Part shown: positions 15,480-28,333 of the stretch, piece by piece
Numbering within the stretch: the first letter of the stretch is position 1
Layout of the letters: each line of letters opens with the position of its first letter
Origin: Cupriavidus basilensis
GTDB lineage: Bacteria; Pseudomonadota; Gammaproteobacteria; Burkholderiales; Burkholderiaceae
Reading direction: 5' to 3'
Length of the DNA stretch: 64,000 bases
NCBI RefSeq assembly: GCF_000876015.1
Contig: NZ_BBQM01000004.1
Coordinates: 62,001-126,000, forward strand
Made by a program: the position numbers and the translations under genes
Notes under the pieces: generated by a model
The model's input: only the letters and a program-made list of their open reading frames with translations
What the model was told of the DNA's origin: nothing
Databases searched by the model: none

Positions 15480-15495
15480 TGTCGCAAGACCGACA
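15480..15495 (+). promoter_or_regulatory. NifA upstream activator sequence for nifB
   Basis: Exact TGT-CGCAAGACCG-ACA. Its centre lies about 105 bases upstream of the -24 element at 15592, a usual NifA distance. It is in the 308-base nifA-nifB gap, which holds no gene I can support. Confidence 0.8.
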
Positions 15496-15591
15496 GAATC
15501 GGGCCGGACTGTCGGTGCGCGGCACCCGCGGGGTTGCGACAAAATCCCCGCGGATGCCGCTAAGTCCTTGATCGGCAAGCATCTTGCCGGG

Positions 15592-15606
15592 TGGCATGGA
15601 TTTGGC
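15592..15606 (+). promoter_or_regulatory. sigma-54 promoter of nifB and the following gene run
   Basis: TGGCATG-GATT-TGGC has GG and GC spaced by ten and one mismatch in the -12 TTGC box. It lies 47 bases before the nifB ATG, with an exact NifA site about 105 bases upstream. A second arrangement, TGGCTTT to TTGC at 15603-15618, has a one-base longer spacer and is less likely. Confidence 0.72.
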
Positions 15607-15652: not shown

Positions 15653-17251
15653 ATGCAAGCGAGCTCGAATGCCGGCGCCATGCCCGCCACCACCTACATC
15701 GGCATCGGCCAGATCCGCCCCCTCGGCGCCAAGGCCGACGTGCCCGCCGCCGGCGGCGGCTGCGGCACGCAGGGCGGCGAGGGCAAGGCCAGTTGCGGTT
15801 CCTCGGGCGGCCCCGACGACATGCCGGCGGAGATCTGGGAAAAGGTGAAGAACCACCCGTGCTACTCCGAGGAAGCGCATCACCACTACGCGCGCATGCA
15901 CGTCGCGGTGGCGCCCGCCTGCAACATCCAGTGCAACTACTGCAACCGCAAGTACGACTGCTCCAACGAATCGCGCCCGGGCGTGGTCTCGCAGAAGCTC
16001 ACGCCCGAGCAGGCCGTCAAGAAGGTGGTCGCGGTGGCGAGCGAGATCCCGCAGATGACGGTGCTCGGCATCGCCGGCCCCGGCGACTCGCTGGCCAACC
16101 CGAAGAAGACCTTCGACACCTTCCGCATGCTGCAGGAGCAGGCGCCCGACATCAAGCTGTGCATCTCCACCAACGGCCTGGCGCTGCCCGAGCTGGTGGA
16201 CGAGATCTGCACGTACAACATCGACCACGTCACCATCACCATCAACATGGTCGATCCCGCCGTGGGCGAGAAGATCTACCCGTGGATTTTCTGGGAGCAC
16301 AAGCGCGTCACCGGCTACGAGGCGGCCCGCATCCTGCACGAGCAGCAGATGAAGGGCCTCGAGATGCTGACCGCGCGCGGCGTGCTGACCAAGATCAACT
16401 CGGTGCTGATCCCCGGCATCAACGACGAGCACCTGATCGAGGTGAACCGCGAGGTCAAGAAGCGCGGCGCGTTCCTGCACAACATCATGCCGCTGATCTC
16501 CGAGCCCGAGCACGGCACCTACTTCGGCCTCAACGGCCAGCGCGGGCCGAGCGCGCAGGAGCTCAAGGCGGTGCAGGACGCCTGCATGGGCGGCGCCAAC
16601 CTGATGCGCCACTGCCGCCAGTGCCGCGCCGACGCGGTCGGCCTGCTGGGCGAGGACCGCAGCGAGGAATTCACGCTCGACAAGATCGAGCAGATGGAAG
16701 TGGTCTACGACCTCGACCGCCGGCGCGAGTACCAGAGCCGGGTCGAGGCCGAGCGCCAGGCCCAGCACGCCGCCAAGGAAGAGGCGCTGGCCGCGGCGCG
16801 GGCGCTCGATGCCACCGATCCGCTCAAGGTGCTGGTGGCGGTGGCCACCAAGGGCGGCGGCCGCGTCAACGAGCATTTCGGCCACGTCACGGAATTCCAG
16901 ATCTTCGAGGTGTCGGCCAGCGAGGCGCTGTTCGTCGGCCACCGGCGCGTGGACCTGTACTGCCAGGGCGGCTACGGCGACGACGAGCAGCTGCCCTCGG
17001 TGGTGCGCGCCATCAACGACTGCCACGCGGTGCTGGTGGCCAAGATCGGCGCCTGCCCGAAGGACGAGCTGGCCCAGGCCGGCATCGAGCCGGTGGACCA
17101 GTACGTCGGCGAGTTCATCGAGAAGGCGGCGCTGGCCTGGTTCGACGACTACCGCGGCCGCGTGGCCAGCGGCGCGGTCGCGCACCGGGACCGCGGCGAC
17201 GCCGCGATCCGGCAGGGCGCCTACACCGCGGGCGCCGCCGAGGTGGCCTGA
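15653..17251 (+). CDS. nifB: NifB, FeMo-cofactor core (NifB-co) synthase
   Basis: A 532-residue radical SAM enzyme. Cys90, Cys94 and Cys97 (CNIQCNYC) bind the SAM cluster, and further conserved cysteines ([17 protein letters not shown]) hold the substrate clusters. From about residue 390 a NifX/NafY-like domain is fused ([20 protein letters not shown]). It makes the carbide-containing Fe8S9 precursor of FeMo-co. I start at ATG 15653, where GGAGAG gives a good ribosome site; an upstream in-frame start at 15584 precedes the promoter and is rejected. Confidence 0.97.
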
Positions 17252-17531: not shown

Positions 17532-17936
17532 ATGCTGCCCAACCTCACCATCACCTCCGCCGCGGACAAGTTCATGCGCCGCATCGTGCGTTTCTCGGGG
17601 CTGCCGGCCGGTGCCGGCTTCCGCCTGCTCGTGAGCGCGGGCGGCTGCTCGGGCTACAACGCGGAATTCAGCGCGGAGCCGGCGCCGCAGCCCGGCGAGC
17701 AGGTGCTGGAGGCCGACGGCCTGCGCCTGTTCCTGCCGGCGGCCAGCCGGCTGATGCTCGACGGCGTGACCATCGACTTCGCCGACACGCCCACGCAGTC
17801 GGGGCTGACCTTCTTCAATCCCGCGCAGGGCGCGTGCGGCTGCGGCAGCTCGGCGGCGGCGGAGCCCGGCGTGGCGCGCATCGAGGTCGGCGCGATCGGC
17901 CGCGGCCGGCCGCCCGCACCGCCGCGGGCGTCCTGA
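17532..17936 (+). CDS. nif-associated HesB/IscA-type carrier
   Basis: A 134-residue A-type carrier homologue with SAGGCSGYNAEF and GACGCGSSAAAE, and a non-conserved C-terminal tail. It resembles the IscA-nif group rather than IscA or ErpA, making it the third A-type protein in the island. Cluster delivery to NifB or nitrogenase is inferred from its place between fdxN and the LRV gene. AGGAGA precedes the ATG. Confidence 0.88.
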   Translation: MLPNLTITSAADKFMRRIVRFSGLPAGAGFRLLVSAGGCSGYNAEFSAEPAPQPGEQVLEADGLRLFLPAASRLMLDGVTIDFADTPTQSGLTFFNPAQGACGCGSSAAAEPGVARIEVGAIGRGRPPAPPRAS

Positions 17937-17951: not shown

Positions 17952-18791
17952 ATGGATGCCATCGATGCGGTGCGCCCGCCCGCCGGGGACATTCCCGCGC
18001 GGCACTGGCGGGGCGGCCCGGTGGACTGCGCCGGCTGCGAATACGCCGCGCTGCGCGGCCTGCCGGACCAGCGCGGCTGCGAGCCGGGCCACGCCTGCAT
18101 GCAGGACGCCTACGCGCGCCGCATCGACCGCTTCTTCCGCTGGCATCCCGAGCAGGGCAACGCGCAGCTCGCGCACCCGTACTTCGAGGTGCGCGCCATC
18201 GCCGCGCGCCACGCCGACGTCTTCCGCCTGCCGGCGCTGGCCGCCGATCCCGACGAGACCGTGCGCCTGCAGGCGGCGCTGCGGCTGCCGCTGGCGCAGC
18301 TGCGCCGGCTTGCCGCGGACCCGCACCGCGAGGTGCGCATGCGCGTGGCGCTGCGCCTGGCGCCGCCCGACCTCGCGGCGCTGCGCTACGACCCCGACTA
18401 CGGCGTGCGCGAGCTGGTGGCGCGGCGCCTGCCGCCGGCCCTGCTGCCGACGATGGCCGCCGACGCCGAGCGCAGCGTGCGCATGCGCGTGGCCCAGCGC
18501 CTGGAAATGCCGGCGCTGTGGCGCCTGGCGCGCGACCCGGAAGCCGAGGTCAGGCGCATCGTGGCGCAGCGCCTGCCGCCGGCGCTGCTGGCCGGCATGG
18601 CGGGCGACGCCGACTGGCGCGTGCGCTGGGAAGTGGCGCAGCGCGCCGAACGCGCCGCGCTCGCGGCGCTGGCCGACGATCCCGATCCCGAGGTGCGCCG
18701 CGCGGTGCGGGAGCGCCGCATGGCGGCGCCCGCGTCCGTCCCGGCGTCCGTTCCCGCCGCCGGCAGCCGGCAAGGAGCACTCCATGTCTGA
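17952..18791 (+). CDS. leucine-rich-repeat-variant (LRV) 4Fe-4S protein
   Basis: A 279-residue protein. The N-terminus has a cysteine set (VDCAGCEYAALRG, GCEPGHACM) fitting a small [4Fe-4S] cluster. It is followed by about eight repeats of 24 residues of the form A-x-DP-x-x-x-VR-x-x-V-A-x-RLP. This is the architecture of the Azotobacter vinelandii nif LRV protein, whose function is not settled. The 3' end overlaps nifZ by eight bases. Confidence 0.92.
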   Translation: MDAIDAVRPPAGDIPARHWRGGPVDCAGCEYAALRGLPDQRGCEPGHACMQDAYARRIDRFFRWHPEQGNAQLAHPYFEVRAIAARHADVFRLPALAADPDETVRLQAALRLPLAQLRRLAADPHREVRMRVALRLAPPDLAALRYDPDYGVRELVARRLPPALLPTMAADAERSVRMRVAQRLEMPALWRLARDPEAEVRRIVAQRLPPALLAGMAGDADWRVRWEVAQRAERAALAALADDPDPEVRRAVRERRMAAPASVPASVPAAGSRQGALHV

Positions 18792-19158
18792 CATCAACCG
18801 CGACGACGACCTGATCGAGGTCGCCTTCCCGCCGCGTTTCCACTACGGCGAGCGCGTGATCGCGCGCTCGGTGATCCGCAACGACGGCACCTACAACGGC
18901 AAGGACATCGGCGAGGTGCTGGTGGCGCGCGGCGAGATCGGCTACGTCACCGCCATCAACACCTTCCTGCAGCAGTTCTACATCTACGCGGTGGACTTCG
19001 TCGAGAGCGGCCACCGCGTCGGCATGCGCGCCAAGGAGCTGTGCACGCTCGACAACCTGCCCGAGGACGTGCTGGCGCGCCTGGGCGAGCGCGCCGGGGC
19101 GCTGCGCGCGATGGGCGCGGATACCGGCGCCGGCGCGGCGCGGGAGCGGACATCATGA
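18784..19158 (+). CDS. nifZ: NifZ
   Basis: A 124-residue NifZ (FHYGERVIARSVIRNDGTY, RGEIGYVTAINTFLQQFYIY, ELCTLDN). NifZ helps form the second P-cluster of the MoFe protein. It begins inside the LRV gene and its TGA overlaps the next ATG, so the genes are translationally coupled. Confidence 0.95.
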   Translation: MSDINRDDDLIEVAFPPRFHYGERVIARSVIRNDGTYNGKDIGEVLVARGEIGYVTAINTFLQQFYIYAVDFVESGHRVGMRAKELCTLDNLPEDVLARLGERAGALRAMGADTGAGAARERTS

Positions 19159-19430
19159 ACATGCTGGCGGCCCCCGCGGCCTACTCATGGGGTATGCGCG
19201 TGATCGCGCTCGACGACCTCCGCAACGACGGCAGCTACCCGGGCCGCGCCGACGGCGAATGCCTGGCCGAGGCCGGCAGCGTGGGCGAGATCGTCAACGT
19301 CGGGCAGGTGGTGGAAAGCGGCGAGCCGGTCTACCTGGTGGAGTTCGGCGGCTGCGTGGTCGGCTGCACCGAGGACGAGATCGCGCCCGCGCCCGCCGGG
19401 CTGCTGCCCCAGGGCGGAGCGGCGGCATGA
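19155..19430 (+). CDS. second, short NifZ-like protein
   Basis: A 91-residue protein sharing the NifZ pattern (WGMRVIALDDLRNDGSYPG, GSVGEIVNVGQVVESGEPVY, VGCTEDEI), but shorter and with two cysteines in CVVGC. Both ends overlap neighbours by four bases. It may be a NifZ paralogue that works on the same P-cluster step; the tandem arrangement suggests duplication and divergence. Confidence 0.88.
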   Translation: MNMLAAPAAYSWGMRVIALDDLRNDGSYPGRADGECLAEAGSVGEIVNVGQVVESGEPVYLVEFGGCVVGCTEDEIAPAPAGLLPQGGAAA

Positions 19431-19822
19431 CGTCCGCCGGGCGCGCGCCGCGGGACGCCGGCGCGGGAGGCCGCGGCGTCGGCAGTGACAGCGGCGAGGG
19501 CGGCGAGGGCGGCGTGCTGGACCTGACCCGCTACCGCGTCGAGCGCGCCCTGCGCCAGCGCGCGCGCTACCGCTACGTGCGGCCGCGCGTGCTGCGCGAG
19601 GCGCAGGGCCTGCGCATCGAAAGCCCGTGCTGCTCGCGCAACGTGGATGCCACGGGCGGGCTGATCGACATCGCCTGGCTGGCGCGCGATGGCGAGGGGC
19701 AGTGGTGCCTGCACGCGCGCGACCACGCGGCGCGGTGCTGGGTGCTGCGCCAGCGCAGCGTCGAGCTGGCCCCGCTGCTGGACGCGCTGTGCGTCGATGC
19801 CGAGCGCGTGTACTGGCCATGA
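19427..19822 (+). CDS. nif-associated protein of unknown function
   Basis: A 131-residue protein I do not recognise with certainty. The first 30 residues are Gly-rich; the conserved-looking part runs from DLTRYRVERALRQRARYRYV through ESPCCSRNVD to the C-terminal AERVYWP. It has CC and two further cysteines, so metal or cluster binding is possible. It may belong to the DUF3024-like small proteins found in nif clusters. The ATGA overlap with the previous gene argues that it is real. Confidence 0.8.
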   Translation: MTSAGRAPRDAGAGGRGVGSDSGEGGEGGVLDLTRYRVERALRQRARYRYVRPRVLREAQGLRIESPCCSRNVDATGGLIDIAWLARDGEGQWCLHARDHAARCWVLRQRSVELAPLLDALCVDAERVYWP

Positions 19823-19913: not shown

Positions 19914-21095
19914 ATGATCTACCTCGACCACAACGCGACCACGCCGCCGGCGCCTGCCGTGGCGCAGGCCATGCTGTCCGCGCTGAGCGGCGCCTGGGCC
20001 AACCCGTCGTCGCAGCACGCGCCCGGCGAGGAAGCCCGGCGCGCGCTGGCGGCGGCGCGCGCCACCGCCGCGCGCGCGCTCGGCTGCAAGCCGGCCGAGC
20101 TGATCTTCACCAGCGGCGCCACCGAGGCCGGCCACCTCGCCGTGCTGGGGCTGCACGCGGCCGCCGGCGGGCGCGGGCGGCTGGTGTTCGGCGCGGTGGA
20201 GCACGCCGGCCAGCTGCGCCTGGCGCACGCGCTGGCCGCGCGCGGCATCGCGGTGGACTTCATCGCCGTGCACGCCGACGGCACGCTCGACCTCGACAGC
20301 GCGGCCCGGCTGATCGGCCCCGGCGTGGCGCTGGTCTCGCTGATGGCCGCCAACAACGAAACCGGCGTGCTGATGCCGGTGGCCGCGGTGCGCGAGCTGG
20401 CCCGCGCCGCCGGCGCGCGCATGCACGTCGACGCCACGCAACTGGTCGGCAAGCTGCCTTTCGATTTCACCGCGCTCGGCGTCGACGCGGTCTCGCTTTC
20501 CGCGCACAAGCTGCGCGGGCCCAAGGGCGCCGGCGCGCTGCTGCTGCGCCAGGGTTGCGCGATCGTGCCGCAGTTGTTCGGCAGCCAGGAGCGGCACCGC
20601 CGCGGCGGCACCGAGAACCTGCCCGCCATCGCCGGCTTCGCCGCGGCGCTGGCGCGCCTGGGCGATGCGCAGCACGACGTGGCGCGCGAGGCGGCGCGGC
20701 AGGCCGCGCTGCGCGACATGCTGGAGCAGGGCCTGCGGCGCGCGCTGCCGGCCGTGCACGTGTTCTCGGCACAGGCGCCGCGCCTGCCCGGCACCAGCTA
20801 CCTGCGCTTCGGCCGGCTGCCGGCCGAGGTGGTGCTGCAGCGGCTCGGGCAGCTGGGCGTGGCCGCTTCCTCGGGCGCCGCCTGCTCGTCCGGCGGCAGC
20901 GAGCTGTCGCACGTGCTGGCGGCGATGGGCGTGCCGCGCGACGAGGCGCTGGCGGCCGTGCGCCTGTCGCTCGGCGAGACCACCACGGCGCAGAACATCG
21001 GGCACGTGGTGGCCGGGCTGCCGCCGCTGCTGGCGCCGCTGCTCGAAGACGACATGCCCGCCCACCGAACCCATGACGCAACGCTGGAGCCCTGA
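19914..21095 (+). CDS. nifS: NifS cysteine desulfurase
   Basis: A 393-residue PLP enzyme beginning MIYLDHNATTPPAPAV, with PLP lysine in SLSAHKLRGPKGAGALLL and the active cysteine in ASSGAACSSGGSELSHVL, the short NifS-type loop. It supplies sulfur for nitrogenase clusters. No nifU is next to it, unlike most nifUS pairs; the scaffold could be the IscU encoded at 11638. A GGAG site precedes ATG 19914. Confidence 0.94.
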   Translation: MIYLDHNATTPPAPAVAQAMLSALSGAWANPSSQHAPGEEARRALAAARATAARALGCKPAELIFTSGATEAGHLAVLGLHAAAGGRGRLVFGAVEHAGQLRLAHALAARGIAVDFIAVHADGTLDLDSAARLIGPGVALVSLMAANNETGVLMPVAAVRELARAAGARMHVDATQLVGKLPFDFTALGVDAVSLSAHKLRGPKGAGALLLRQGCAIVPQLFGSQERHRRGGTENLPAIAGFAAALARLGDAQHDVAREAARQAALRDMLEQGLRRALPAVHVFSAQAPRLPGTSYLRFGRLPAEVVLQRLGQLGVAASSGAACSSGGSELSHVLAAMGVPRDEALAAVRLSLGETTTAQNIGHVVAGLPPLLAPLLEDDMPAHRTHDATLEP

Positions 21096-21097
21096 CC

Positions 21098-21316
21098 ATG
21101 AAAGTGATGATCCGCAAGGACAGCAAAGGCGCGCTCAGCGCCTACGTGCCGAAGAAGGACCTGGAGGAGCCCATCGTGGCGATGGCGCAGCCCGGCATGT
21201 GGGGCGGCCTGGTCACGCTGGCCAACGGCTGGCAGCTCGAGCTGCCGGTCATGGCGGCCGACACGCCGCTGCCGATCACCGTCGAGGCCAGGCGCATCGC
21301 CGGCAAGGAGGAATGA
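21098..21316 (+). CDS. nifT: NifT/FixU
   Basis: A 72-residue NifT (MKVMIRKDSKGALSAYVPKK, ANGWQLELP). It is a small conserved nif protein of unclear, often dispensable function. It follows nifS by two bases. Confidence 0.94.
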   Translation: MKVMIRKDSKGALSAYVPKKDLEEPIVAMAQPGMWGGLVTLANGWQLELPVMAADTPLPITVEARRIAGKEE

Positions 21317-21317
21317 G

Positions 21318-21578
21318 ATGGGCCTGAGCACCGAACAACTGCGCGCCGCCGCCGAGCTGGTGGGCGCGGCGCCCACGCTGCGCGACGCCGCCGCCCTGTG
21401 GCGCGCGCGCCATCCCGGCGTGCGCGCGCTGCTGGTCGACGCGCTCGACATGCGCGACGAGACCGCCGCGCTGCGCCTGGGCGCGCGCAGCGTCTACCTG
21501 GCGGCGTCGAACGGGCACTGCTGGTCCGTCACGCAGCGGCCCGACGAGGCCGACGCGCTGATCCTGACGCAGGACTAG
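21318..21578 (+). CDS. small nif-associated protein, unknown function
   Basis: An 86-residue soluble protein with no metal motif that I recognise. It reads as helical (LSTEQLRAAAELVGAAPTLR), then a strand-rich part ending SVTQRPDEADALILTQD. It starts one base after nifT and is followed closely by the DegT-like gene, so it belongs to the same operon. It may be a DUF6129-like nif protein; that name is uncertain. Confidence 0.82.
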   Translation: MGLSTEQLRAAAELVGAAPTLRDAAALWRARHPGVRALLVDALDMRDETAALRLGARSVYLAASNGHCWSVTQRPDEADALILTQD

Positions 21579-21585
21579 GCCGCAC

Positions 21586-22749
21586 ATGGAAATCGACGCC
21601 ATTTCCCTCAGCGAGCCCGACTGCGGCGCGCGCGAAGCCGAGCTGGTCGGCGCGGTGCTGCAATCCGCGCGCTGGAGCGACGGGCCCATGCGCGAATCGT
21701 TCGAGCGCGCCTTCGCCGGCTGGACCGGCCGCGCCCACGCGGTGGCGGTGGCGAGCGGCACCGCCGGCACCTGGATCGCGCTGCGCGCGCTGGGTATCGG
21801 CCCCGGCGACGAAGTGGTGTGCGCCGCGCACACCTGGCATCAGGTCGCGCACGCCGTCACGCTGGCCGGCGCCGCGCCGGTGTTCGCCGACATCGACTAC
21901 TGGAGCGGCTGCCTCAGCGCCGAGAAGGCCGCGCGCAGGATCGGCCCGCGCACGCGCGCCATCCTGGCCGGCAACACCAACGGCCATCCGGCCGCCTGGG
22001 GCCCGCTGCGCGAACTGGCCGACGCGCACGGCGTGGCGCTGATCGAGGACAGCACCGAGGCGCTCGGCTCGCGCTACAGGGGGCGCGGCGTGGGCGCCTT
22101 CGGCGACGTGTCGGTGTTCGATTTCTCGGCGCCGTCGGCGCTGTGCACCGGCGAGGGCGGCATGCTGGTCACGGACGACGAGCGGCTCGCGCACGAGCTG
22201 CGCTACCTGCGCCAGCGCCGCGTGGCCGACCGCGCCTCGGTCTCGGTCGGCGCGCGGGTGCCGCTGCAGGGCGCCATGAGCGAGCTGACCGCGGCGCTCG
22301 GGCTGGCGCAGCTCGCCGGGCTCGACGAGCGGCTGGCGCGGCGCAAGCAGGTCGAGGCCTGGTACCAGGAGCAGATGCAGAGCTTCGAGGGCATCAAGCC
22401 GCCGTACCTCGCCGAGGACGTGGAGGACGTCCACTGGATGCTCTACGTGGTGCACCTGGGCAAGCGCTTCACGCAGAGCGCGCGCGCGCAGATGATCGAC
22501 GACATGCGGTCCTGCGGCATCGAGACCGCGCCCTACAGCCATCCGCTGCACCAGCAGTTCCACTACATGAACACCGGCGGCGCGGCCGCGCACAAGCGCG
22601 GCCTGCTGCCCGACACCGAGCGCATCGGCGACCGCGCGCTGGCGCTGCCGCTGCACGCGCAGCTCGACGCCAGCCAGGTCAAGTACATCGTCAAGACGCT
22701 CAAGGACACCGCGACCAACGTCGGTGCCGGCGCCGCCATCTATCTCTGA
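21586..22749 (+). CDS. DegT/DnrJ/EryC1-family protein lacking the PLP lysine
   Basis: A 387-residue fold-type I aminotransferase homologue (AVASGTAGTWIALRALGIG, EDSTEALGSRYRGRGVGAFG, GEGGMLVTDDE). In family members the strand before GEGG holds the Schiff-base lysine (F-H-P/A-x-K-N); here the aligned stretch is DFSAPSALCTGEGG, with Ser184 in place of Lys. It therefore probably cannot work as an ordinary transaminase. It may bind PLP or a sugar nucleotide without turnover, or act as a structural partner of the neighbours. It lies inside the nifB operon. Confidence 0.85.
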   Translation: MEIDAISLSEPDCGAREAELVGAVLQSARWSDGPMRESFERAFAGWTGRAHAVAVASGTAGTWIALRALGIGPGDEVVCAAHTWHQVAHAVTLAGAAPVFADIDYWSGCLSAEKAARRIGPRTRAILAGNTNGHPAAWGPLRELADAHGVALIEDSTEALGSRYRGRGVGAFGDVSVFDFSAPSALCTGEGGMLVTDDERLAHELRYLRQRRVADRASVSVGARVPLQGAMSELTAALGLAQLAGLDERLARRKQVEAWYQEQMQSFEGIKPPYLAEDVEDVHWMLYVVHLGKRFTQSARAQMIDDMRSCGIETAPYSHPLHQQFHYMNTGGAAAHKRGLLPDTERIGDRALALPLHAQLDASQVKYIVKTLKDTATNVGAGAAIYL

Positions 22750-22758
22750 GGTCCGGAC

Positions 22759-23652
22759 ATGCCCGCCGACATTGACCCAACCGATATCGACCCAACCGAC
22801 ATCGACCCCGCCGACATCGACCAGATAGCCCGCCAGCTGAACGCCGGCGCCATCATTCCCTACCTCGGCCCGGGGCTGCTGGCGTTGTGCGCCGACGCCG
22901 CCGTGCCGGCCACGCCGGTGGCGCTGGCGGAGCTTCTGACCGCGCGCATCAGCGTGCCGCACAAGATCCGCAAGCGGCTCACCCAGGCCGCGCAGTTCAT
23001 CGAGAACTTCAAGCACCGCAAGTCGGTGGTCAACCTGCTGAACGAGGCTTTCGCCGCCACGCCGTCGCCGTCGCCGTCGCCGCTGCACCTGGCGCTGGCC
23101 GCCAGCGGCGCGGGGCTGTGGGTCGACACCTGGTACGACGACACCTTCTCCGCCGCGCTGGCCCAGGCGCGCCCGCGCGGCGGCTGGGCGCAGGTGCAGG
23201 GCCTGTCGCAGGCCGAGCATTTCGGCACGTGGTTCGGCGCCTACGGCCCGCACGGCGAGCCGCTGCCGGACGTGCCCGCCGCCGGCGCGCTGCTGTACAA
23301 GCCGATCGGCGGCCACGCGCCGGCCGCCAACTACCTGGTGTCCGACAGCGACTACGTCGAGGTGCTGACCGAGATCGACATCCAGACCCCGATCCCGCCG
23401 GCCGTGCAGGCCTGGCGCGGCGGGCGCGGCTTCCTGTTCCTGGGCTGCCGCTTCGACGACCAGCTCACGCGCAGCTTCGCGCGCCAGATCATGAAGCGCT
23501 CGTCCGGCGCGCACTGGGCGGTGCTGCCCGACGCGCCCACGCGCATGGAGGCGCGCTTCCTGGAAGAGCAGGGCATCGCCCGCATCGCCATGCCGCTGCC
23601 GGCGTTCGCCGACGCGCTGGTGGCCGCGCTGCGGCCCGCCCTGGCCGCGTAG
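22759..23652 (+). CDS. SIR2-like domain protein, nif-associated
   Basis: A 297-residue protein. It starts with a five-residue repeat (DIDPT/DIDPT/DIDPA/DID), then a SIR2-like nucleotide-binding pattern, NAGAIIPYLGPGLLALC, and a late FLFLGCRFDDQLTRSF strand typical of SIR2_2-like proteins. No zinc-finger cysteines of true sirtuins are seen. NAD binding or NADase activity is possible but not shown. It follows the DegT-like gene by nine bases and precedes a [2Fe-2S] ferredoxin, an unusual set for nitrogen fixation. Confidence 0.78.
   Translation: MPADIDPTDIDPTDIDPADIDQIARQLNAGAIIPYLGPGLLALCADAAVPATPVALAELLTARISVPHKIRKRLTQAAQFIENFKHRKSVVNLLNEAFAATPSPSPSPLHLALAASGAGLWVDTWYDDTFSAALAQARPRGGWAQVQGLSQAEHFGTWFGAYGPHGEPLPDVPAAGALLYKPIGGHAPAANYLVSDSDYVEVLTEIDIQTPIPPAVQAWRGGRGFLFLGCRFDDQLTRSFARQIMKRSSGAHWAVLPDAPTRMEARFLEEQGIARIAMPLPAFADALVAALRPALAA
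22768..22821 (+). repeat. 15-base tandem repeat encoding DIDPT units
   Basis: Three full 15-base copies and a nine-base fourth (units from 22768, 22783, 22798 and 22813) of the type GACATCGACCCAACC, inside the 5' end of the SIR2-like gene. The copies differ by a few bases. Repeat-number changes would lengthen the acidic N-terminus without a frameshift. Confidence 0.85.
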
Positions 23653-23704
23653 CGGCGCCCGGCGCTTTTTCATGCATCGCAAACCAACCGGAGAAACCGA
23701 AATC

Positions 23705-24001
23705 ATGACCGCACTGACCGTACTGCCCGCCGGCAAGACCTATGACGTGGCCGCCGGCGCCACGCTGCTGCAGGCGCTGCTCGCCAGCGGCGAGCCCATC
23801 GCGCACAAGTGCGACGGCAAGGCCGAATGCGGCGCCTGCCACGTCTTCGTGCAGGAGGGGCGCAAGAGCCTGTCGAAGATCCAGCGCGGCGAGAACGAGA
23901 AGCTGGACACCATCGTCGGCGTCGGCGCCAAGTCGCGCCTGGCCTGCCAGGCGGTGCTGGGCGAAGAGCCGGTGACGGTCGAGCTGCTGAGCTTCGTCTG
24001 A
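23705..24001 (+). CDS. [2Fe-2S] ferredoxin, nif-associated
   Basis: A 98-residue plant-type ferredoxin with ligands in KCDGKAECGACHVFV and the distal Cys in SRLACQAVL. It resembles the small nif-linked [2Fe-2S] ferredoxins of diazotrophs. ATG 23705 is preceded by GGAGAAACC. It lies between the SIR2-like gene and a flavin oxidase gene and might serve the latter; partner and potential are unknown. Confidence 0.9.
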   Translation: MTALTVLPAGKTYDVAAGATLLQALLASGEPIAHKCDGKAECGACHVFVQEGRKSLSKIQRGENEKLDTIVGVGAKSRLACQAVLGEEPVTVELLSFV

Positions 24002-28317: not shown

Positions 28318-28333
28318 TGTCGGGTTCCCGACA
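28318..28333. promoter_or_regulatory. shared NifA upstream activator sequence
   Basis: TGT-CGGGTTCCCG-ACA, embedded in a perfect inverted repeat TTGTCGGG-TT-CCCGACAA. It lies about 100 bases from the haemoglobin -24 box on one side and about 110 bases from the nifH -24 box on the other. It is the only exact site in the 394-base nifH upstream gap, so it may serve both promoters. Confidence 0.82.

Follow-up and report, generated by a model that had tools for sequence, protein, structure and literature searches.

A DegT-family protein lacking the Schiff-base lysine, encoded in the nifB operon of Cupriavidus basilensis, is a probable nif-dedicated pseudo-aminotransferase

The window analysed here is a stretch of 64,000 nucleotides from a Cupriavidus basilensis genome of 7.8 Mb in 62 contigs. 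It contains a same-strand run of nif and nif-associated genes, in which nifB, fdxN and nifT are accompanied by genes encoding Fe-S proteins, nifZ-type proteins, a NifS-like protein, a SIR2-like protein and a DegT-family protein that we call nif-DegT. The features of the run are the following.

15480..15495, forward strand: TGT-N10-ACA ahead of nifB, a possible NifA upstream sequence, proposed from its position only
15653..17251, forward strand: nifB; the listed open reading frame starts with TTG at 15584, and the in-frame ATG at 15653 fits better and is probably the start
from about 17300, forward strand: fdxN, part of the same-strand run
17532..17936, forward strand: IscA-like Fe-S assembly protein (domain matches)
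17952..18791, forward strand: LRV protein with FeS4 domain (domain match)
18784..19158, forward strand: nifZ (domain match)
19161..19430, forward strand: second nifZ-like gene (domain match)
19427..19822, forward strand: DUF3024 protein (domain match)
19914..21095, forward strand: NifS-like cysteine desulfurase (Pfam aminotransferase class V), which unlike nif-DegT keeps its Lys199 and Cys324
21098..21316, forward strand: nifT, named after a homologue in annotated records
21318..21578, forward strand: 86-aa protein; the gene at the same place in a Bradyrhizobium record is labelled DUF6129 family
21586..22749, forward strand: nif-DegT, a lysine-less DegT/DnrJ/EryC1/StrS homologue of 387 aa (ATG at 21586, stop codon ending at 22749)
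22759..23652, forward strand: SIR2-like protein (PF13289), with WYD where most relatives have NYD
23672..24001, forward strand: 2Fe-2S ferredoxin, nearest to the ISC type and below the cut-off of that model

The nif-DegT frame is separated by 7 bases from the preceding open reading frame, whose 86-aa product had no Pfam or NCBIfam match, and by 9 bases from the SIR2-like frame. An overlapping minus-strand frame of 735 aa (21529-23736) was taken to be an open frame of GC-rich DNA. The TGT-N10-ACA pattern occurs three times in the window, against 3.57 expected by chance, and a second copy lies upstream of nifH at 28318-28333. A scan for the sigma-54 pattern that tolerated one mismatch gave no match before nifB (8 in the whole window, 6.04 expected); by eye, the stretch TGGCATGGATTTGGC at 15592-15606 was spotted there as a possible sigma-54 site.

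A DegT-family frame had been predicted at this place, and both its coordinates and its domain match agree with that assignment: PF01041 covers residues 14-372 with an E-value of 6.3e-91 and 305.7 bits, against a curated cut-off of 19.8. The protein has the sugar-aminotransferase fold. In Foldseek and VIA comparisons its predicted structure groups with GDP-perosamine synthase, DesV and ArnB. The AlphaFold2 model, made from 27 aligned sequences, has a pLDDT of 76.9 and a pTM of 0.82, and is weak at residues 212-226, 326-347 and 379-383. The same genome encodes three other near-full-length DegT proteins (L002-L004; E 2.6e-50, 6.4e-41 and 4.6e-29), all with the lysine.

Homologues of nif-DegT were collected from the best 80 of 238 matches among 84,980 species genomes, from 300 genomes of the host's order (27 matches at E ≤1e-60), from a class set of 369 genomes (10 matches at E ≤1e-90) and from a phylum set of 398 genomes (6 matches); the order, class and phylum counts include the window genome and overlap one another. 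Pooling yielded 125 nif-type loci, defined by an identity of 45% or more to the window copy, with 118 distinct sequences, some places being represented twice. The lowest identity among these loci is 48.4%, and the next relatives reach at most 39%. Two of these weaker relatives from the class set (L122 and L123) carry the lysine, and no nif-operon gene was matched in the 4-kb stretches around them. Among 40 listed of 351 plasmid records with a DegT match, at least four are nif-type (H1-H4), and those from H5 downwards are at most 37% identical. The full operon with DegT is also present in Methylococcus sp. EFPC2.

To place the active-site residues, the protein was aligned to solved structures with phmmer, and the contacts described in the accessible part of the crystal study of Spr1654 (PMC5936713) were mapped by spacing and alignment. 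The positions discussed below are these, with counts among the 118 distinct homologues.

21754..21762, forward strand: Ser57-Gly58-Thr59, equivalent of the phosphate loop (116, 112 and 110 of 118; PMC5936713, accessible part)
21835..21837, forward strand: codon of Trp84, matching the aromatic PLP-ring contact (Trp 114, Phe 4; PMC5936713, accessible part)
22048..22050, forward strand: codon of Asp155, column of the pyridine-nitrogen Asp (118 of 118; role from PMC5936713, accessible part)
22120..22122, forward strand: codon of Asp179, column of the PLP-phosphate Ser (Asp in all 118; the role given for this Ser follows PMC5936713, accessible part)
22135..22137, forward strand: codon of Ser184, column of the Schiff-base lysine (alignment to structures; S, G, L, A, C or Q)
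22150..22161, forward strand: GEGG loop, residues 189-192 (sequence)
22717..22746, forward strand: exact conserved C-terminal tail NVGAGAAIYL, downstream of the Pfam match (homologue alignment)

The Schiff-base lysines of GDP-perosamine synthase (3bn1/3dr7, motif GNK) and of ArnB (1mdo, motif AIK) both fall on Ser184, the residue originally proposed to stand in place of the lysine, and the mutant chains 3dr4 and 4oca (K186A, K188A) have their alanine in this column. Neither lysine nor histidine occurs there in any of the 125 nif-type loci, which have S in 95, G in 20, L in 3, A in 3, C in 2 and Q in 2 (90, 19, 3, 3, 2 and 1 among the distinct sequences). The lysine is thus missing family-wide, which rules out a sequencing error or the single-strain change that lysine-bearing homologues would have indicated; serine itself is not strictly conserved, and since the residue varies, nothing fixed took the lysine's place. 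The 26 distinct other DegT proteins have K in 24 and H in 2 in the multiple alignment; pairwise BLAST put L and N on this column in 2 of 30 weaker relatives. The only near-invariant lysines of nif-DegT, Lys271 (118/118) and Lys373 (116/118, past the end of the Pfam domain), are both distant along the chain, and Lys114 (103/118) and Lys254 (101/118) are not invariant. Normal transamination, which the protein had been predicted to be unable to perform, is very unlikely because the residue that forms the normal internal aldimine is missing.

In Spr1654, Asp170 contacts N1 of PLP, His173 contacts O3', Tyr84 lies against the ring, and Lys199 is the remaining listed contact; the phosphate, through which PMP is mainly anchored, is held by Ser194, five residues before Lys199, and by Thr59, with Glu205 and Gly206 acting through water (PMC5936713, accessible part). 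In nif-DegT, Asp170, Tyr84 and Lys199 correspond to Asp155, Trp84 and Ser184, and His173 to Glu158 (117/118), a position at which perosamine synthase likewise has Glu. Thr59 corresponds to Thr59, and Glu205 and Gly206 to Glu190 (102/118) and Gly191 (118/118), whereas Ser194 corresponds to Asp179, which is Asp in all 118 nif-DegT sequences versus Ser in 24 and Ala in 2 of the 26 other DegT proteins. By this mapping, the lysine and the phosphate serine were changed and the floor of the pocket was kept. The original view that the fold motifs and the GEGG loop are intact therefore holds for the loop but not for the phosphate serine. This serine is not indispensable in the family, because the lysine-bearing sister rows carry Ala (FAFYPNK). 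No invariant Cys that could form a metal site was found in nif-DegT (best C187, 83/118).

A further conserved element lies at the C-terminus, where Asn378, Gly380, Ala381, Gly382, Ile385 and Tyr386 are each present in at least 116 of 118 sequences. The chain ends exactly in IYL in 58 and in IY in 58; the remaining two (L039 and L112) are truncated by the locus end. All 26 other DegT proteins compared are devoid of the tail. An end so fixed suggests that the free C-terminus matters.

In a tree of 55 nif rows (below 85% mutual identity) and 26 other DegT rows, the nif rows form one side of a single branch with support of 100/100 and a length of 1.39 substitutions per site. Its nearest neighbours are lysine-bearing rows (L131/L134; 96/89), followed by two His-bearing rows (97/85). 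Purifying selection is evident from dN/dS values of 0.12-0.27 between the window copy and seven relatives (pS 0.31-0.54; an eighth pair, L060, was left out for unequal lengths), and 105 of 387 columns are at least 97% identical among 104 sequences reaching down to about 50% identity. Relative to the window's copies, DegT is closer than the NifS-like protein (NifS2) in 72 of 72 loci.

The association with nif genes, which the original prediction had read from this single operon, extends across the family. Among the best 80 of 238 matches, a nif gene stands beside nif-DegT in 78 loci, and in the two others (L067 and L082) the SIR2 and ferredoxin genes are present all the same. In the 65 of these loci that extend 7 kb or more upstream, nifB, iscA, nifZ and nifT are each present in all 65, NifS2 in 61, LRV in 57, DUF3024 in 62 and the 86-aa gene in 63; in the 71 that extend 2.5 kb or more downstream, SIR2 is found in 69 and the ferredoxin in 59. 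Within the 300 genomes of the host's order, 47 have nifD (E ≤1e-100; 46 over the curated cut-off), 27 have DegT and 26 have both, giving a Fisher p of 1.5e-23 in a test that treats related genomes as independent; in the one DegT genome without a nifD match (G135), the DegT sequence is truncated where the locus ends.

The SIR2-like neighbour is itself degenerate. The Asn of the TNYD motif, which we take to be the catalytic Asn as in sirtuins, is replaced by Trp in all 103 distinct nif copies, so that the residue expected of an active SIR2-type NADase is missing. Of 33 other PF13289 loci used as controls, one (L194) turned out to be nif-type with Trp; the Asn is present in 30 of the remaining 32, in 27 by the TTN/STN motif and in three (L174, L195 and L197) identified by eye in a related motif. 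The two exceptions, L171 and L173, are non-nif proteins with T and S at this position. They are also the controls that the profile of the nif SIR2-like proteins matches; the Asn has therefore been lost outside nif operons as well. At position 183, the place of the HG histidine, 101 of 103 have I, L, W, M or V, but L169, L194 and the S. fredii protein keep the His. The SIR2-like frame of L173, a distant relative of the nif one, adjoins a frame with a TIR-like beginning (AVFLSYASED), and in that genome the nif-DegT profile strongly matches a single protein, which bears the lysine. In the NifS-like neighbour, the PLP lysine is kept in 98 of 100 and the Cys in 97 of 100.

Our results also demonstrate that nif-DegT is dispensable in many lineages. 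Among the 47 nifD genomes of the host's order, 21 lack it, and a second search, whose query did match other genomes in the class and phylum sets, was also empty there. Sinorhizobium fredii NXT3 has nifB-fdxN-nifZ-nifT-SIR2 and no DegT in its nifB operon; by match pattern, other rhizobial plasmids likewise have SIR2 after nifT without DegT. Conversely, L027 and L049 have DegT with no match for SIR2, NifS2 or ferredoxin. In P. sprentiae, where DegT is intact and the ferredoxin frame open, the adjacent class V sequence is a short fragment and a stop interrupts the SIR2 frame. Only pieces of DegT remain in P. phymatum and P. phenoliruptrix, no piece was found in a 9-kb stretch of P. sabiae, and the 9-kb stretches of these three species gave no match for SIR2, NifS2 or ferredoxin; the frames of Bradyrhizobium sp. 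BWA-3-5 are interrupted. On nodule-symbiont plasmids of Paraburkholderia and Bradyrhizobium (L204, L205, L207 and L208), DegT, SIR2 and NifS2 have decayed to differing degrees, and an IS630-type piece adjoins the DegT remnants of P. phymatum. In nodules of a P. phymatum nifA mutant, nifB, nifT and the next gene fall by 9.83, 7.55 and 5.88 log2 units, which indicates that this nifB operon depends on NifA; the cluster measured holds no intact DegT (PMC8305402, Table 1, accessible part). Being missing from many diazotrophs, nif-DegT therefore has an accessory or conditional use.

We consider it probable that nif-DegT is a nif-dedicated pseudo-aminotransferase with a non-catalytic part in nitrogenase metallocluster maturation. 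An ancestral DegT-family sugar aminotransferase would have been recruited, once as far as the tree shows, into the proteobacterial nifB-nifZ-nifT operon, and would there have lost the PLP-carrying lysine and gained Asp at the PLP-phosphate site, with Trp84, Asp155, Ser57-Gly58-Thr59, the GEGG loop and the fold retained. The present protein would perform no PLP transamination and would most likely be a dimer that carries the conserved free tail, binds a ligand or serves as a scaffold, and acts alongside NifB, IscA, NifZ and NifT; the operon context is what places it in nitrogenase assembly. Nucleotide binding, as originally suggested, is possible. A more specific and tentative version, to which we give a minor chance, is that a sugar aminotransferase became a nitrogenase maturation factor whose PLP pocket, with Asp179 and Asp155, may now receive another ligand such as homocitrate, a nucleotide, a metal or a cluster precursor; the invariant free GAGxxIY(L) would then be a docking or gating element, and the sirtuin-like neighbour a second hollowed-out enzyme in the same process.

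Other explanations appear less attractive. The retained Asp155, Trp84 and SGT loop, the His-bearing relatives that branch near the nif clade in two examined genomes (L149 and L157), and the crystallisation of lysine-to-alanine mutants of ArnB, WbpE and perosamine synthase with PLP or a sugar ligand (PDB titles 4oca, 3nys and 3dr4) would suit an enzyme that still uses PLP or PMP without the lysine, in the manner of ColD/RfbH 3-dehydrases. This is nevertheless unlikely: those relatives share His and Ser where the nif column varies, Asp179 puts a carboxylate where the anchoring phosphate is held in Spr1654 (PMC5936713, accessible part), and no other sugar-nucleotide enzyme is among the ten operon proteins scanned. 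An obligate complex in which nif-DegT and the SIR2-like protein, as two degenerate enzymes, form a scaffold with the ferredoxin develops the original idea of a structural partnership, and the frequent co-occurrence of the three genes and the uniform Trp speak for it. We regard it as doubtful. Evidence against an obligate partnership comes from S. fredii and, judged by match pattern, other rhizobia, in which SIR2 is present and DegT is not, from L027 and L049, in which DegT has no matched partners, and from P. sprentiae, in which DegT is intact and the neighbouring SIR2 is broken; moreover, the Asn is also lost in non-nif L171 and L173. That nif-DegT is the functionless remnant of an enzyme, carried along in the operon as it decays, could account for the remnants and interrupted frames in Paraburkholderia and Bradyrhizobium and for the empty P. 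sabiae stretch, but is very improbable given the low dN/dS, the many near-identical columns and the exact C-terminus. A maintained non-catalytic role thus remains the most likely reading.

The lysine-less, nif-only branch spans beta- and gammaproteobacteria and three genomes of other classes of the phylum, and is a candidate part of the nitrogenase assembly machinery. The two fixed pocket changes and the exact tail offer direct mutational handles, and the natural losses in nodule symbionts allow a comparison of the conditions that need nif-DegT. The degenerate sirtuin-like protein at 22759-23652 is worth a study of its own. Public records label nif-DegT proteins as DegT/DnrJ/EryC1/StrS family aminotransferases, and the family name is poor ground for assigning a transaminase function.

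Among the papers listed by searches of mainly open-access literature, no description of a nif-linked DegT protein and no data on nif-DegT mutants were found; the accessible parts of PMC8594446, PMC3912193, PMC10927898, PMC9009326, PMC9412634, PMC8305402, PMC8175650 and PMC7825797 do not describe one. Compared with GDP-perosamine synthase (3bn1/3dr7) and ArnB (1mdo), nif-DegT has no Schiff-base lysine, has Asp in place of the phosphate serine, and possesses a conserved C-terminal tail and a nif-operon location. The sister rows L131/L134 (the same places as L123/L122), nearest in the tree and 36-39% identical, differ from it in having the lysine, within FAFYPNK, and no tail. The NifS-type cysteine desulfurase of the operon is also a PLP-type nif protein, but belongs to class V and keeps its Lys and Cys. 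The PMP-dependent 3-dehydrases of the ColD/RfbH type, which bind PMP non-covalently, have in common with nif-DegT the DegT fold and the missing lysine. The His-bearing L149 and L157, presumably of this type, carry SFYPAHH with His and the phosphate serine, whereas nif-DegT has no fixed residue in the lysine column, no His there in any of the 125 loci, and Asp179.
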